Source: an uncultured Caryophanales bacterium
Lineage (GTDB): Bacteria; Bacillota_I; Bacilli_A; RFN20; CAG-826
Direction: 5' to 3'
Assembly: GCA_937873795.1 (NCBI GenBank)
Contig: CALMWE010000257.1
Location: 1-42,779, forward strand
Length of the DNA: 42,779 bases
Below are positions 2,150 through 42,287 of the stretch, one piece after another; the first letter of the stretch is position 1; every line of letters starts with the position of its first letter. The translations under genes and the position numbers were made by a program. Below the pieces are notes generated by a model. That model saw nothing but the letters and a program-made list of their open reading frames with translations, was not told the DNA's origin and ran no database searches.

Positions 2150-2202
2150 CAACGGACTGAAAATCTGTGTGTCGCCTTTTCAATCCCGGTTTGGGCCACC
2201 AT
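2150..2202 (+). pseudogene. tRNA-Phe 3' fragment (right repeat copy)
   Basis: Carries the tRNA-Phe anticodon arm, variable loop, T arm and CCA but no D arm or 5' acceptor strand, so it cannot fold as a tRNA. Four substitutions separate it from the intact gene. The GG-to-TT change and the C-to-T change in the T arm break its stem, showing decay. A terminator similar to that of the intact tRNA follows at 2214, so the duplicated unit probably included the downstream terminator. It forms the right border of the Fic islet. Confidence 0.88.
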
Positions 2203-30336: not shown

Positions 30337-30367
30337 AAGGACCTCATCGCGAGGTCCTTGTTTTTTT
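30337..30367. terminator. Bidirectional terminator after amylase and DUF1097
   Basis: AAGGACCTC (30337-30345) pairs with GAGGTCCTT (30351-30359), followed by GTTTTTTT; the other strand reads into TTTTGTTT. Confidence 0.92.
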
Positions 30368-30908
30368 ATTTGCTTTTTTCTTTGAAAAACTTGTGATTGA
30401 AGAAGTTGCCGAGCGATCCCGAGACAATGCCGAGCACCGCGCCAAGGGCTAAACCCAAGAAGGTGGTGAATAAGACCGGGAAAGTGAAGACCCCGCCACA
30501 CGCGACGAACGCGGTGGAACCGAGGAACATTGCCGGTAACGAATTGAGGTAACGGATGTTCGCCGTCAAGACGATGCCCGCACCGCCGAGGCCGATGCCG
30601 ATAAACGCGCCGAGGTAGTTTTGCCAACCGTCACGGCCGATCAACGTCCAAAGGGCGACCATGGCCATGCCCCATAAGACACCGACGTAGTTGTGCGAAA
30701 CGCCTTTGAGGAAATCCGATTTCCGGCTGCCTAATAAGCAGAAGCTCGACCAACCGATAAACGCGGCAATGCCAATGTTAGTTAACGGGAAGCTGACGGA
30801 AAGCGGACTATTTTGATATAAGAGCACCGACACTTGCCATAATCCGGCGATGATGCCGACGGCTAATGCGATACCCCATAGTTTTTGATGTAGATTTGGA
30901 CCCTTCAC
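30366..30908 (-). CDS. DUF1097-type integral membrane protein
   Basis: A 180-residue membrane protein with about five helices and glycine-rich segments (GAFIGIGLGGAGIVL; GLALGAVLGIVSGSLGNFF), matching DUF1097 and YcdZ-like inner-membrane proteins of unknown function. I start at GTG 30908 because GGAG lies eight bases upstream; the longer reading from 30980 would run through the promoter. Its promoter contains a perfect inverted repeat that could be an operator. Confidence 0.8.
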   Translation of the reverse strand: MKGPNLHQKLWGIALAVGIIAGLWQVSVLLYQNSPLSVSFPLTNIGIAAFIGWSSFCLLGSRKSDFLKGVSHNYVGVLWGMAMVALWTLIGRDGWQNYLGAFIGIGLGGAGIVLTANIRYLNSLPAMFLGSTAFVACGGVFTFPVLFTTFLGLALGAVLGIVSGSLGNFFNHKFFKEKSK

Positions 30909-30941
30909 AGAAAACACTCCTTTAATAATGACAACTTTCCT

Positions 30942-30970
30942 ATGATACACACCTTTTGGTGTTCCCCCAA
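30942..30970 (-). promoter_or_regulatory. Promoter of DUF1097 with an inverted repeat in the spacer
   Basis: On the minus strand, TTGGGG (30970-30965), a 17-base spacer and TATCAT (30947-30942). The spacer contains ACACC-AAAA-GGTGT (30949-30962), a perfect inverted repeat fit for a dimeric repressor. Confidence 0.55.
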
Positions 30971-31043
30971 GTGGAAACATCCGAAAACATCATGAAACCG
31001 ATTACAAAGCCGTTTTCATTCCTTCTATGCCTATGGCATACCG

Positions 31044-31087
31044 CAAAAAGCATATCATTACCGCTTTTTGTTTCATTCGCTTACAAT
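31044..31087 (+). promoter_or_regulatory. Inverted repeat and -10 box before nitroreductase
   Basis: CAAAAAGC (31044-31051) and GCTTTTTG (31063-31070) form a perfect 8-base inverted repeat with an 11-base spacer, covering the -35 position of the TACAAT box at 31082-31087. Confidence 0.5.
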
Positions 31088-31128
31088 AGAGTCAGTCGAA
31101 CAAAAATAACATCATAAGGAGAAAACAT

Positions 31129-31728
31129 ATGAAATCATTTTTAAAATCCATTCAAGAACGCCGCAGTGTCTACGCCCTCTCGAACGCCTCGCCGATCAGC
31201 GATGCCCGCATCGAAAAACTGGTGGGGGAAGCCGTCAAACACGTCCCCAGCGCGTTCAACATGCAAGATCAACGCGCGGTCTTACTTTTTGGTAAAGACC
31301 ACGCCAAACTGTGGAGCATCGTCCTCGAGACCCTCCGCAAAATCGTCCCTGCCGCCTCATTTGCCAAAACCGAAGCCAAGATTCAAAGCTTCGCCGCGGG
31401 ACACGGAACCGTCTTATTCTTCTCGGATAACGCCGTCGTCGAAGGCATGGCCACGCAGTTCCCGCTGTACGCTGACAACTTCCGTGCTTGGGCTCCGCAT
31501 GGTGCCGGCATGCTTCAATACGCGGTTTGGAACCTGCTAGAAAGCGAAGGCCTCGGAGCCAGCTTACAACACTACAATCCGTTGATCGACGAAGAGGTCA
31601 AAAAGACCTGGAAACTTCCTGCGGATTGGAAGCTGATCGCGCAGATGCCGTTTGGTACGCCGACCGCCCTTCCCGAAGAAAAAGAATTCGAACCGCTTGA
31701 AAAACGCTTCCACGTGTTTGGAAAGTAA
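31129..31728 (+). CDS. Nitroreductase-family flavoprotein (HBN1/Frm2-like)
   Basis: A 199-residue FMN-dependent NAD(P)H oxidoreductase. The opening ERRSVYALSN (10-19) holds the RRS phosphate-binding residues, HVPSAFNMQ (37-45) matches the substrate loop, and PHGAGMLQYAVWNLLESEGLGASLQHYN (given in two halves: 123-136 and 137-151) the central helix and C-terminal FMN site. This fits the nitroreductase subgroup that includes yeast Hbn1 and Frm2. Natural substrates are unclear; roles in redox stress are usual. AAGGAG precedes the start. The upstream inverted repeat suggests a dedicated regulator. A terminator follows. Confidence 0.92.
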   Translation: MKSFLKSIQERRSVYALSNASPISDARIEKLVGEAVKHVPSAFNMQDQRAVLLFGKDHAKLWSIVLETLRKIVPAASFAKTEAKIQSFAAGHGTVLFFSDNAVVEGMATQFPLYADNFRAWAPHGAGMLQYAVWNLLESEGLGASLQHYNPLIDEEVKKTWKLPADWKLIAQMPFGTPTALPEEKEFEPLEKRFHVFGK

Positions 31729-31734
31729 TTAACG

Positions 31735-31759
31735 AAGGTGAGTAAAACTCACCTTTTTC
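31735..31759 (+). terminator. Terminator of nitroreductase
   Basis: AAGGTGAG (31735-31742) pairs with CTCACCTT (31748-31755), then TTTCTTT. Confidence 0.9.
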
Positions 31760-31769
31760 TTTCCCGTGA

Positions 31770-31798
31770 TTGACAAAAAGGCCGAGACTACCTAGGAT
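31770..31798 (+). promoter_or_regulatory. Promoter of the third zinc-ribbon gene
   Basis: TTGACA (31770-31775), a 17-base spacer and TAGGAT (31793-31798). Confidence 0.7.
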
Positions 31799-31825
31799 AT
31801 TCTTAATTGCGAGGAATACAACGTT

Positions 31826-32191
31826 ATGGAATGTCCTTTTTGCCACCAACAGATCGCTGACGGCACCCGTAAGTGTTATCACTGCGGTGCGGAAATCCCC
31901 GGACCCGACGGAAAAAAACGCCGTCATAAAACCGGGACCACGATTGCCTTTGAAACGTTCTTAAAGCATTTGAATAAAGCCCGAGCCCTTTTAACCGTCT
32001 CTTTGATTTTATCCGGAGCGGCCTTTGCCGGCGGCGGCGTCTGGTTCCTCGTGTTGATTCTGGACCGCGTGCCTTTGATGGACACGCTTCAACTCATTTC
32101 CCCGTTAGTGGTCATCTCGGGTCTTCTCTTCTTCGTTTTGTCCATCATCCGTCACATCCTCAAAGCGATGGAATTCTACGTACCCAAGTAA
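31826..32191 (+). CDS. Zinc-ribbon protein with two membrane helices
   Basis: A 121-residue protein: an N-terminal zinc ribbon (C3, C6, C17, C20 in CPFC and CYHCGAE), a basic linker (GKKRRHK), then two hydrophobic segments near 56-78 and 89-112. The ribbon cysteines have exactly the spacing of the 2318 gene. GAGGAA precedes the start. The gene has its own promoter, and no terminator lies between it and the RNA units that follow. Function is unknown. Confidence 0.83.
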   Translation: MECPFCHQQIADGTRKCYHCGAEIPGPDGKKRRHKTGTTIAFETFLKHLNKARALLTVSLILSGAAFAGGGVWFLVLILDRVPLMDTLQLISPLVVISGLLFFVLSIIRHILKAMEFYVPK

Positions 32192-32242
32192 TCTTGACAA
32201 AATCTTTACAGCATTCCTCTTTTCTTTTTAAAACGAGGGTGC

Positions 32243-32248
32243 TATATT
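32243..32248 (+). promoter_or_regulatory. Extended -10 box of RNA unit 1
   Basis: TATATT preceded by TGC (32240-32242), an extended -10. The -35 region is a pyrimidine tract with weak match. Transcription would start near 32255. Confidence 0.5.
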
Positions 32249-32254
32249 ATGTCC

Positions 32255-32338
32255 GTGAGTTGGTGCCGACTGCTAAACCAACGCATCGTGGGCAACCACG
32301 CAAAACAAGTGAAATATGGAGTCTTCGGACTCCTTTTT
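32255..32338 (+). ncRNA. Putative small structured RNA, unit 1
   Basis: About 84 bases between an extended -10 box and an intrinsic terminator, with no ribosome site or reading frame. Visible helices: GTTGGT (32259-32264) with ACCAAC (32277-32282) around a 12-base loop; CGTGG (32287-32291) with CCACG (32296-32300) closed by a GCAA GNRA tetraloop; and GGAGTC-TTCG-GACTCC (32318-32333) followed by TTTTT as terminator with a UUCG tetraloop. A GACU in the first loop could pair with AGUC in the terminator arm and compete with it. The order of hairpins faintly recalls small pseudoknotted riboswitches such as preQ1-II, but conserved sequence does not match and no gene follows directly. It does not match tRNA, SRP RNA, tmRNA or 6S RNA. 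Confidence 0.55.
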
Positions 32339-32357
32339 ATTTGATAAAGCATATCAT

Positions 32358-32386
32358 TTGAAACTTGCCTTCCCCTTGTCTAAAAT
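32358..32386 (+). promoter_or_regulatory. Promoter of RNA unit 2
   Basis: TTGAAA (32358-32363), an exact 17-base spacer and TAAAAT (32381-32386), placed 20 bases after the terminator of unit 1. Confidence 0.7.
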
Positions 32387-32392
32387 GACGCT

Positions 32393-32459
32393 GTAAGTTT
32401 TTTCCAAAAGAAGACTTACCAGAGAAACCGCTTCAAGGGCTTGAGTCGGTTTCTTTTTT
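32393..32459 (+). ncRNA. Putative small RNA, unit 2
   Basis: About 67 bases from the predicted start to a T run. GTAAGT (32393-32398) pairs with ACTTAC (32414-32419), and GAAACCG (32424-32430) pairs with CGGTTTC (32447-32453), enclosing CTTCAAG/CTTGAG and followed by six T, a strong terminator. No reading frame with a ribosome site fits inside. It could instead be the attenuated leader of the LRR gene at 32537, but that gene has its own -10 box downstream of the terminator. Confidence 0.5.
32424..32459 (+). terminator. Terminator of RNA unit 2
   Basis: GAAACCG/CGGTTTC outer stem, CTTCAAG/CTTGAG inner stem with one bulged T, then TTTTTT. Confidence 0.88.
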
Positions 32460-32504
32460 GTTTATGACACCTGTCGTGAAGTGCACTTAACAAAGTTTCA
32501 TTTT

Positions 32505-32513
32505 TGCTATGAT
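32505..32513 (+). promoter_or_regulatory. Extended -10 promoter of the first large LRR protein
   Basis: TGC followed by TATGAT (32508-32513), 23 bases before the start codon; the -35 position is weak. Confidence 0.6.
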
Positions 32514-32536
32514 GACTTTAAGGTGAGGAAAAAGTT

Positions 32537-34741
32537 ATGAATTTCCCGAAAAAGACAGCCCTGCTTTCAGTCAGTTCGCTTCTTTTGGTTGCGCTTGCGA
32601 TGGTCCTAAAAATCGATCCTCCGGAAACGATTGCCGACAGCCCGACCCCATATACGGTTTCGTTGACCACCGAAGATCCCGCACTCATCAGTTCGGGAAC
32701 CTATGGCAGTGGCACCAAAACAGTGAAATACGTCACCTTCGAATATTATCTAGCTAAGGATAATGCCTCTTACCACACCGAGCTCAATACCTCAGGCTAT
32801 ATCGGCAATGCCTCAACCAGCCAAATAACGTCCATCACCCAAATCGAAGCCAGCTTCATCGGGAATGTCAAACTCGAAGTGGGTTACGACTACGGCACGG
32901 TGATTCACACCACCAGTCCGTTTTTCTCGTCCACACCGGTCGTCTTCACCGATAATCCCTACTTTTTCCGGATTACCGTATTGTCCGGTGTCTTGACTTT
33001 AAATAGTCTCACCGTGACTTACAGTTGCTTGCCCACTCCGGCAAGTCCTGTCTATACGTTTGATACCGACCATTATGTCGTCTCCGGATACACCAAACGT
33101 CCGACCTCTGTGGTCATCCCATCCACCTATAACGGCTACCCGGTAACTCAGATTGCCTCGGGTGCGTTCATGAACGCTTCCATCCTACAAAGCATCTCCA
33201 TTCCCAGCAGTGTCACGGTCATCGGCGATGGTGCTTTTGGAAACTGTGTTTCCCTGAGTTCCATTACCCTTCCCGATGTTTCCTTCATCGGCTCCGGTTT
33301 ATTCTATAATTGCCCTTCTTTGATGAGTATCACCATCCCCAGTACGGTGACCATGATTGGTGAATCCGCCTTCTATGGCTGCACGGGCTTAACAAGCATC
33401 ACGATTCCCAGCGGAGTAACTTCGTTAGGACAATCGACGTTTGAAACCTGCACCAACCTCGCCACGATCAACGGCGGAAGTGGACTGACCAGCATCGGCC
33501 GTGACGCCTTTACCGGCACCCCATGGTTAACTACGTTACGTAGCGGCGACGCCGATAAAGTCATTGTTTATCGCAACATTATCATCGATGCCTTAACCGC
33601 GACCGGTGATATCGATGTGCACCTTGAAACCATCACGAAAGTCTCCGATGGCGCGTTTGCCGGTTGCACCGACATCACATCCGTCGTCCTTCCCGAAGGT
33701 GTCACCTATATCGGTGAATACGCGTTCCAATACTGCAATAGTATGACCAGCTTCACGATGCCCAGCACCGTGACCACGATCGGTAAGAGTGCCTTCTATG
33801 GCTGTTCAAAAGTGACTTCGATGACCCTTCCCAGCGGTATCACCCGCATCGAAGATGAAACGTTCTATCAATGCTTCGCCATCAATAACTTAGTCATCCC
33901 CAGTGGTGTGACCCATATCGGCGAAAATGCGTTCCATTCGTGTGCTTCGCTCGCCAACCTTACGATTCCCTCCAGCGTAACTTCCTTAGGTTCGTATGCC
34001 TTTGCCAACACCGCGTGGTTGACAGCCCAACAAGGGATTAACCCGATGGTCATCCTGAATAACCTCTTTCTCATCGACGGTTCCACGATTACGACCGCCT
34101 CGGTCAGTGTTCCTTCCGGAGTCACCCATATCATGAAGAGCGCGTTTGAATATAACGCCTCCATCACCTCCGTGACGCTTCCCGACGGACTCGTCAAAAT
34201 CGAAGACAATGCCTTCGCCGGGTGCAGTAACCTTGCCTCCATCAATTTACCCGAAAGTATTACTTCGATCGGCATCTATGGCTTTGCCATGTGCGAGATG
34301 TTGACTTCACTGACTTTCCCCAGCGGCATTACCCGGATGGAAGACTATGTCTTATTCGATTGCATCCGTTTGACTTCGTTCACGATTCCTGCGGGTGTCA
34401 CATATATCGGTGTTAGTGCGTTCCATTACTGCTCCGGTTTGACTTCTTTAGTTTTACCCAGCGGGGTCACCGAAATCGGCTTGAACGCCTTTAATAACTG
34501 CACCCATTTGGCCAGCATCACCATCCCCGTGGGGGTTACCGAGCTTGGCAACTTCACGTTTGATACCTGCAGTGCTTTAACCACGATTTACTACGAAGGT
34601 ACGACCATGGCCCAATGGAACGCCATTGTCCTCGATACGTACACGTTCAATAATGCTGCCTCCCATACGGTGTATCTCTACAGCTCCGAAAACTATACCG
34701 GCTATTGGCGTTACGTCACCGGTGTTCCGACGTTGTGGTAA
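32537..34741 (+). CDS. Large exported BspA-type LRR_5 surface protein
   Basis: A 734-residue exported protein. It has a hydrophobic N-terminal segment (about 8-24) followed by KIDPPETIADS, then a beta-rich domain to about residue 170 that recurs in the protein at 40029, and then LRR_5 repeats to about residue 700 (units of the type ITIPSGVTSLGQSTFETC). The last 40 residues (YYEGTTMAQWNAIV...) are the standard BspA-type end with a strand pair. No LPxTG, lipobox or C-terminal membrane helix is visible, so attachment is unclear. Such proteins bind host matrix or other bacteria. GGTGAGG precedes the start. Two RNA-like units lie directly upstream. Confidence 0.93.
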   Translation: MNFPKKTALLSVSSLLLVALAMVLKIDPPETIADSPTPYTVSLTTEDPALISSGTYGSGTKTVKYVTFEYYLAKDNASYHTELNTSGYIGNASTSQITSITQIEASFIGNVKLEVGYDYGTVIHTTSPFFSSTPVVFTDNPYFFRITVLSGVLTLNSLTVTYSCLPTPASPVYTFDTDHYVVSGYTKRPTSVVIPSTYNGYPVTQIASGAFMNASILQSISIPSSVTVIGDGAFGNCVSLSSITLPDVSFIGSGLFYNCPSLMSITIPSTVTMIGESAFYGCTGLTSITIPSGVTSLGQSTFETCTNLATINGGSGLTSIGRDAFTGTPWLTTLRSGDADKVIVYRNIIIDALTATGDIDVHLETITKVSDGAFAGCTDITSVVLPEGVTYIGEYAFQYCNSMTSFTMPSTVTTIGKSAFYGCSKVTSMTLPSGITRIEDETFYQCFAINNLVIPSGVTHIGENAFHSCASLANLTIPSSVTSLGSYAFANTAWLTAQQGINPMVILNNLFLIDGSTITTASVSVPSGVTHIMKSAFEYNASITSVTLPDGLVKIEDNAFAGCSNLASINLPESITSIGIYGFAMCEMLTSLTFPSGITRMEDYVLFDCIRLTSFTIPAGVTYIGVSAFHYCSGLTSLVLPSGVTEIGLNAFNNCTHLASITIPVGVTELGNFTFDTCSALTTIYYEGTTMAQWNAIVLDTYTFNNAASHTVYLYSSENYTGYWRYVTGVPTLW

Positions 34742-40002: not shown

Positions 40003-40028
40003 AAGGCTATTGAATGAGGAAAAAAGCA

Positions 40029-42287
40029 ATGTCAACCTATGCCATGAAACCCCGTTTTGTTTGGTCCGCTTTTTTGCTTTGCTCTCTTATGGCCATCGCC
40101 CTAATTTCCAAAGAGGGAGATCCCCCTTCGCCCATCCACGGCGAGAGTGATTACACGATTACCTTGAACGCTGCCAACGCACCCACGACGTCTTCGACCT
40201 ATACGGACACGCTTCAGACGGTCCGATACACCGAATTCGCCTATGGCGATGTCAAAGCCAGCGAAGGGAACCACGTGGAAATGAGCTCCAACGCGTGGAT
40301 CCGTAACAATTATCAAATCACCTCGATCACCGGCATTACCGTCACCTTCTCGGGTGATGGCTATCTGGATATCAGCGTGAGTTACGACACCAGCAATTAC
40401 TTCGAATATCCTTTGACTTCCGGAGTCCGCAAAGACTTCGCCAATCTTCCCTATTACTTTCAACTCATGTCTTGCAATGCCCCGGTCATCATCGAAAGCA
40501 TCGTCTTGACTTATTCCTGCGTGGACCATCCCGAAACCCTCGATAAATATGAAATATCCTGGTATGACGAGGATGGCATGACGCTGCTTGAAAAAGACGT
40601 CGACGTCGAACCGGGCACTATGCCTTCTTATGATGGGCCGACGCCCACCAAACCCTACGATCCGGGAGAAGGAACCTTCTTTACCTTCGCCGGATGGGAT
40701 TGGCCCTTAGAACCCGTCAGTGGCAATTTTAGTTATTTCGCGACCTACACACCTTATATGGCGACCTATAGCTTAATCACCGAAGGAACCGCATATGAAC
40801 TGACCAGCGTTTCCGATAATACCATGGTCCGTATTTCCATTCCCTCGAGTTATGAAGGCCTTCCGGTTACCTCGATTGCCGCCGAAGTGTTCGATGGCTT
40901 TACCAGCCTCGAAGCGGTGGATTTGCCTTCGACACTCGTCACCATCGGCGATGGCGCCTTTGCCGGATGTACCTCTTTGACCACGATCCATTTACCGGCC
41001 TCGTTGGGCAGTTTTGGTCAACTCCCCTTTGTCGGTGATTCATCGTTGACCTCGATTACCGTCGATGAGGCCAATACGCACTTCTCATCGTTGGACGGCG
41101 TTTTATTCAATGAAACCCAAGATACCTTGCTTATTTATCCCGACGGTAAAGGAACTTCTTACAGCATTCCTTCGGGCGTAACCACCGTTGCCGAGGGTGC
41201 TTTCTTCCATGCCACCCTCCTTGAAAGCGTCACCATTTCACCCAGCGTTACCACCCTCGGCAGCAGCGTCTTTGGCTTTTGCTCATCGCTGGATAACGTG
41301 GTGATCCCGAATACCGTGACCAACCTCGGCGTTTCGACGTTCGTGTATTGCACCGGACTCACCTCGGTCACCTTGCCTTCCGGATTAACCACACTCCCGT
41401 CCTCGACCTTCCAAGGATGTTCAAGTCTAGGCAGTGTCACGCTTCCTTCGGGCATTACGACCATCGACATGGATGCGTTCTATAACTGTTCTTCCTTGAC
41501 GTCGCTGACGCTTCCCAGTGGGTTGACCACCATCGGTACCCGTGCCTTTGCGTATTGCTCGCTCTTAGGCAACATGACGTTACCCGAAGGTTTAGTGACC
41601 ATCAATGGTAATGCTTTCCTCGGCTGCACCACGATGACTTCGATTACGATTCCCTCCACAGTGACCAGCATCGGCGCGTTTGTTTTCGTCGGCTGTTCCT
41701 CGCTCACCGAAATTGTGGTCGCCTCGGCCAATGCCAACTATGCTTCGCTCGCGGGTGTCCTATTCAATAAAGACTTCACGACCTTGATCAACTATCCCAC
41801 CGGAAAAGCCGATGCGACCTATGCGATTCCCAGCGGTGTGGTGAGTATCCTCAACAATGCTTTCCGCGATAACCTCTCCTTAGCCGCGGTCAGCATTCCC
41901 AGCAGCGTCACCTCCATCCTTGAATACAGTTTCCGTTCCTGCCTCAACCTGACGCTCACCATCGATCCCGCCAACACGGCCTATGCCATTGTCGATGGCG
42001 TGTTATTCACCGAAGATATGACGACCTTAGTGATGTTCCCCTCGGGAAAATCGGATGCTTCTTATACCGTCCCCAGCAGCGTCACGACCATTCAAGGCAA
42101 TGCCTTCCGGGATATTTCGACGTTGACTTCCGTAATCATCCCCAGCTCCGTGACCACGATCGGTTACCATGGCTTCTACTTGTGCAATAACCTCACCATC
42201 AACTGTGTCGCCAGTGCTAAACCCGCAGCATGGAATACGGACTGGAACGCCAGTAGCCGTCCCGTCGTGTGGGGGTATGTCGCGTAA
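40029..42287 (+). CDS. Large exported BspA-type LRR_5 surface protein with InlB-like B-repeat
   Basis: A 752-residue exported protein. It has a hydrophobic N-terminal segment (about 10-26, VWSAFLLCSLMAIALIS) and a beta-rich domain up to about 170 that matches the N-terminal domain of the 32537 protein (shared landmarks ITSIT, PYYFQL, LTYSC). A B-repeat-like module with WYDEDG and FAGWDW follows (about 172-246), then LRR_5 repeats to the end. Within the repeats, a unit with GVLFN...YP-GK appears three times (about 360, 570 and 655). No sorting signal is seen. GAGGAAA supports the start at 40029. Confidence 0.93.
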   Translation: MSTYAMKPRFVWSAFLLCSLMAIALISKEGDPPSPIHGESDYTITLNAANAPTTSSTYTDTLQTVRYTEFAYGDVKASEGNHVEMSSNAWIRNNYQITSITGITVTFSGDGYLDISVSYDTSNYFEYPLTSGVRKDFANLPYYFQLMSCNAPVIIESIVLTYSCVDHPETLDKYEISWYDEDGMTLLEKDVDVEPGTMPSYDGPTPTKPYDPGEGTFFTFAGWDWPLEPVSGNFSYFATYTPYMATYSLITEGTAYELTSVSDNTMVRISIPSSYEGLPVTSIAAEVFDGFTSLEAVDLPSTLVTIGDGAFAGCTSLTTIHLPASLGSFGQLPFVGDSSLTSITVDEANTHFSSLDGVLFNETQDTLLIYPDGKGTSYSIPSGVTTVAEGAFFHATLLESVTISPSVTTLGSSVFGFCSSLDNVVIPNTVTNLGVSTFVYCTGLTSVTLPSGLTTLPSSTFQGCSSLGSVTLPSGITTIDMDAFYNCSSLTSLTLPSGLTTIGTRAFAYCSLLGNMTLPEGLVTINGNAFLGCTTMTSITIPSTVTSIGAFVFVGCSSLTEIVVASANANYASLAGVLFNKDFTTLINYPTGKADATYAIPSGVVSILNNAFRDNLSLAAVSIPSSVTSILEYSFRSCLNLTLTIDPANTAYAIVDGVLFTEDMTTLVMFPSGKSDASYTVPSSVTTIQGNAFRDISTLTSVIIPSSVTTIGYHGFYLCNNLTINCVASAKPAAWNTDWNASSRPVVWGYVA

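Follow-up and report, generated by a model that had tools for sequence, protein, structure and literature searches.

The 345-nt gap between a gene for a zinc-ribbon protein (end 32191) and a gene for an LRR protein (start 32537) raises the question of whether this interval has genes of its own or consists of the trailing and leading segments of its neighbours. The window, that is, the whole stretch of DNA analysed, is one 42.8-kb contig of a 1.54-Mb assembly (344 contigs, 93% complete, 5.7% contaminated) from a lineage of small genomes. Both flanking genes lie on the + strand and the gap contains two units on that strand, each with a promoter, one or more hairpins and a terminator, and no ordinary gene. 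A sequence-only reading of the DNA had described such a tandem pair without a protein gene; all of the signals that it named were found where it had placed them and, as detailed below, the pair exceeded what shuffled sequence yields. The features of the locus are as follows.

31826-32191, + strand: upstream gene, 121-aa zinc-ribbon protein (open reading frame list; weak Pfam Zn_Ribbon_1 match just below the cut-off)
32240-32248, + strand: unit 1 promoter, extended -10 TGCTATATT, predicted start about 32255 (sequence; motif specificity in the genome)
32255-32286, + strand: unit 1 hairpin H1, GTG-A-GTTGGT/ACCAAC-G-CAT, with the 12-nt loop GCCGACUGCUAA (folding, pair probability about 0.5-0.7)
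32287-32300, + strand: unit 1 hairpin H2, CGTGG-GCAA-CCACG, with a GNRA loop (folding)
32308-32342, + strand: unit 1 intrinsic terminator, GGAGTC-UUCG-GACTCC (32318-32333) plus TTTTTATTT (sequence, folding)
32358-32386, + strand: unit 2 promoter, TTGAAA-N17-TAAAAT, 10 of 12 matches, predicted start about 32393
32393-32419, + strand: unit 2 hairpin, GTAAGTTTTTT-CCAAA-AGAAGACTTAC, 11 bp (folding, comparison with shuffles)
32421-32459, + strand: unit 2 intrinsic terminator, stem 32421-32456, T-run 32454-32459 (sequence, scan, folding)
32505-32528, + strand: promoter of the LRR gene, extended -10 TGCTATGAT (32505-32513), and ribosome site AAGGTGAGG (sequence; motif specificity)
32537-34741, + strand: downstream gene, 734-aa BspA-type LRR protein (Pfam LRR_5, E=1.5e-122)

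The promoter of unit 1 has an extended -10 of the form TG-N-TATATT (5 of 6 matches) and lacks a good -35. An A-rich linker separates H2 from the terminator, which has a loop of the cUUCGg type and a stem extended by pairing between the A-tract and the U-tract. The whole of unit 1, terminator included, folded better than shuffles (p=0.009), whereas the core consisting of H1 and H2 did not (p=0.12), so the low folding energy of the unit is attributable to the terminator and not to H1 and H2. The structured look of unit 1 is mostly that of an ordinary terminator. For the unit 2 promoter, the chance of one or more such promoters in the gap was 0.028. The entire unit 2 folded better than shuffles (p about 0.001), as did its first hairpin alone (p=0.002). 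The notion that the unit 2 dyad is a repeated operator was ruled out, the sequence occurring once in the genome. In each unit, the predicted start coincides with the first paired base of the first hairpin.

Over 222 kb of the genome, a scan that required a promoter, a terminator 35-160 nt past the start and no gene between them detected 2 units, and the gap at 32192-32536 holds both; the genome statistics given here are based on subsets of contigs (159 kb or 222 kb) rather than on the whole genome. When the gap was subjected to exact dinucleotide shuffling (n=5000), at least one unit arose with P=0.0008 and at least two in 0/5000, values whose significance is somewhat inflated, as the scan thresholds were fixed after the finding had been seen. 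Given the dozens of gaps that might have been picked, the two units stay significant, while a single unit is marginal. The same scan applied to 400 kb of a family member gave one match, which was rejected: it reads as coding sequence skipped by a simple gene caller, and an Rfam scan was empty there. The extended -10 motif was also informative. All 8 of the TGNTATAAT-like sites (at least 5 of 6 matches) on the + strand of the window are intergenic; 7 of these sense-strand sites lie 15-87 nt upstream of a gene start, the remaining one being that of unit 1. Over 159 kb of the genome, 18 intergenic extended -10 sites were observed versus 5.9 expected. The promoter and terminator signals are thus present in the gap in an arrangement that is improbable by chance. 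The scan for orphan units is a usable yardstick, such units being rare in this genome.

The reading favoured here, which is given about an even chance, is that the gap encodes two short, constitutively terminated, lineage-restricted candidate regulatory sRNAs that are probably not translated. RNA polymerase would start at about 32255 for unit 1 and at about 32393 for unit 2, and in both cases the strong terminators would halt it, giving RNAs of about 85 nt and about 68 nt, respectively, each made up of the 5' hairpin or hairpins and the terminator hairpin. Transcription, these transcript ends and the lack of translation are inferred. On folding, both hairpins of unit 1 and that of unit 2 formed before the terminators and separately from them at all of the transcript lengths tested, and termination should hence be constitutive; since both terminators appear constitutive, two short stand-alone transcripts are favoured. 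Base-pairing sRNAs are the commonest kind of stand-alone sRNA gene, and the two units may be young sRNA genes that act in this way, in which case the contact sites of unit 1 would be the 12-nt loop of H1 and the A-rich linker before the terminator. The base-pairing function is a guess; a search for pairing targets among the translation starts of the window gave no significant partner.

Like generic stand-alone bacterial sRNA genes, the units have their own promoter, a predicted length of 60-100 nt, 5' hairpins and a strong terminator, and they are situated between flanking genes without an open reading frame of normal size. They differ from such genes in that there are two in tandem in one gap and in that no homologue or target was found among the genomes and translation starts searched. 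Their own promoters and terminators, and the lack of coding capacity, are recognised here from sequence signals.

The region was compared with related genomes and with known RNA families. The earlier statement that no known RNA family could be recognised was borne out by Rfam scans of the gap, which gave no family match either at gathering cut-offs or permissively; the best sub-threshold Rfam 15 score was 22.3 against a cut-off of 47, and on the opposite strand. The blastn searches with the whole gap (39 relatives), with unit 1 (196 family genomes) and with unit 2 (220) returned only the sequence itself and short chance matches, and those chance matches that were inspected and did not involve a terminator fell mostly within coding sequence. 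A covariance model of the entire unit 1 (R1) gave weak matches that were driven by the terminator and had no common core. Apart from the locus itself, a model of the unit 1 core (R2) gave just two matches in 224 family and 279 order genomes, both with E=0.046 and in coding DNA, and none at E<=0.01 in 395 class genomes. These large covariance searches relied on single-sequence models and stricter filters and could miss distant relatives. The sole congener searched (82% complete) lacks the whole region, the entire stretch 30366-32540 having no match in it. Viral pattern scans and blastn against phages and plasmids gave chance matches only. When the neighbouring nitroreductase gene was searched against contigs, the best non-self match (L032) showed no synteny to the gap.

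Homologues in other species, which would mark a conserved structured noncoding RNA, were not found in the family, order or class genomes searched, of which the only congener lacks the whole region. The sequence-only reading had named a lack of conservation beyond strain level, together with a lack of transcript, as refuting it, and the first half of this was observed, with the limit set by that congener. The suggestion that the GTTGGT/ACCAAC and CGTGG/CCACG helices represent such an RNA is unsupported, given this result and the unremarkable stability of the H1 and H2 core. Because no relative carrying the RNAs was found, the units are regarded as candidate species-specific sRNAs and not as a new RNA class. 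Should the two units be transcribed, they would represent candidate sRNAs of an uncultured lineage, confined to one species among those searched; no new mechanism is indicated by the paired units.

It is quite unlikely that unit 1, with H1, the GNRA hairpin and the terminator, is the first known member of a structured RNA not yet described, arranged in tandem with a second sRNA and confined to a poorly sampled genus whose other species lie outside the collections searched. Among known structures, the preQ1-II riboswitch (RF01054) has as its first stem one of the UUGGUG...ACCAA type, with another small hairpin after it. Unit 1 is similar to this structure in both elements. Rfam does not list this riboswitch in the gap even at E=10, the neighbours of unit 1 are the zinc-ribbon and LRR genes and not queuosine transport, and a constitutive terminator comes next.

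The flanking genes suggest other explanations. The terminator scan found no terminator directly 3' of the zinc-ribbon gene, nor any other before 32318, as would be expected if unit 1 were merely a structured 3' terminus of the mRNA from the zinc-ribbon gene, with its terminator ending that transcript and its extended -10 accidental or weak. The absence of a good -35 is in keeping with this, and another gene of the window (ending at 2110) is likewise about 100 nt away from its terminator, with a tRNA fragment in between. On this reading, processing could still free a fragment derived from the 3' UTR. Against this unlikely explanation, the distance from stop codon to terminator is no more than 44 nt for 22 of 28 terminators in the genome, while the unit 1 terminator is 127 nt past the zinc-ribbon stop codon and ranks 25th of the 28, which is far for this genome; moreover, the extended -10 motif is promoter-specific in the genome and unit 2 is left unexplained. 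It is similarly doubtful that the LRR gene has an attenuated leader consisting of unit 2, or perhaps of both units, in which transcripts from the inner promoters are usually stopped at the terminators and a signal permits read-through into the gene. A filter for attenuators (PMC2965389) admits a terminator that shares its strand with the downstream gene, lies no more than 300 nt from the start codon and is closer to that gene than to the one upstream. The unit 2 terminator passes this filter, since it shares the strand of the LRR gene, precedes the LRR start codon by about 80 nt and has this gene as its nearer neighbour, and the succession of hairpin, terminator and same-strand gene is like that of 5' transcription attenuators. 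The unit 1 terminator fails the filter, being 195 nt from the LRR gene versus 127 nt from the upstream gene. The LRR gene was previously said to have its own promoter, and this proved correct: the extended -10, the ribosome site and the ATG at 32537 all lie 3' of the unit 2 terminator, a difference from such attenuators. In addition, no mutually exclusive antiterminator was favoured at the transcript lengths tested in folding without pseudoknots or ligands. Few of the LRR relatives with readable upstream DNA have such a terminator, these relatives being distant, and linkage of the unit to the LRR gene was not seen in them.

The remaining alternatives concern unit 1 by itself. The claim that the units have no ribosome site needs a slight qualification. 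A GAGG at 32235-32238 is located 10 nt 5' of an ATG at 32249 that opens a frame of 31 codons (32249-32344), but this ATG precedes the base at which the transcript is predicted to start, and the frame continues across the unit 1 terminator, with its stop codon past the T-run. That unit 1 encodes a small peptide, either from this ATG or from a leaderless GTG at 32255, is very improbable. The codon score of the 31-codon frame, 0.04, was reached by 1.1% of stop-free shuffles and corresponds to about the 5th percentile of real in-frame segments; the portion of the frame before the terminator scored -0.11, and the peptide matched no family and had no homologue among 206 family genomes. It is scarcely credible that unit 1 is a decayed tRNA fragment, a reading prompted by the CTGCTAA between GTTGGT and ACCAAC, which recalls the anticodon arm of tRNA-Ser(GCU). 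The resemblance is visual, and a genuine tRNA-Phe fragment does occur elsewhere in the window (2150-2201). However, the best score of unit 1 against 66 tRNAs was 30, a value that 6.5% of shuffled sequences and 7% of random segments also reached, while the true tRNA-Phe fragment scored 88 in the same comparison, and the permissive Rfam scan gave no tRNA match in the gap. A tRNA-Ser/Lys remnant was rejected on this basis (p about 0.07).

Several other observations were made on the flanking genes and the genome. No convincing full-length homologue of the zinc-ribbon gene (31826-32191) was found in 116 family genomes. Its product and that of 2318-2968 are two separate small proteins of the window, each of which starts with a zinc ribbon. 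The window has a second BspA-type LRR gene (40014-42287), similar to that at 32537-34741 (40% over about 260 aa), and no terminator was detected in the gap upstream of it.

The tRNA-Phe fragment at 2150-2201 comprises 52 nt that are 92% identical (48/52) to the 3' part of the tRNA-Phe gene (753-828), CCA included. It is directly 3' of a Fic-domain gene (989-2110), which separates it from the intact tRNA, and was not called by ARAGORN or Rfam. Its appearance is that of an attachment end duplicated by a small integrated element, or of the remnant of a tRNA-gene duplication. On another contig of the same genome (L296, 10379-10610), an extended -10 is followed by a long structured leader that scored below the Rfam gathering cut-offs. 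This leader contains a T-box-like stretch, GGATGGCACCACGG, and a stem resembling a terminator, and the gene after it reads as phenylalanyl-tRNA synthetase alpha.
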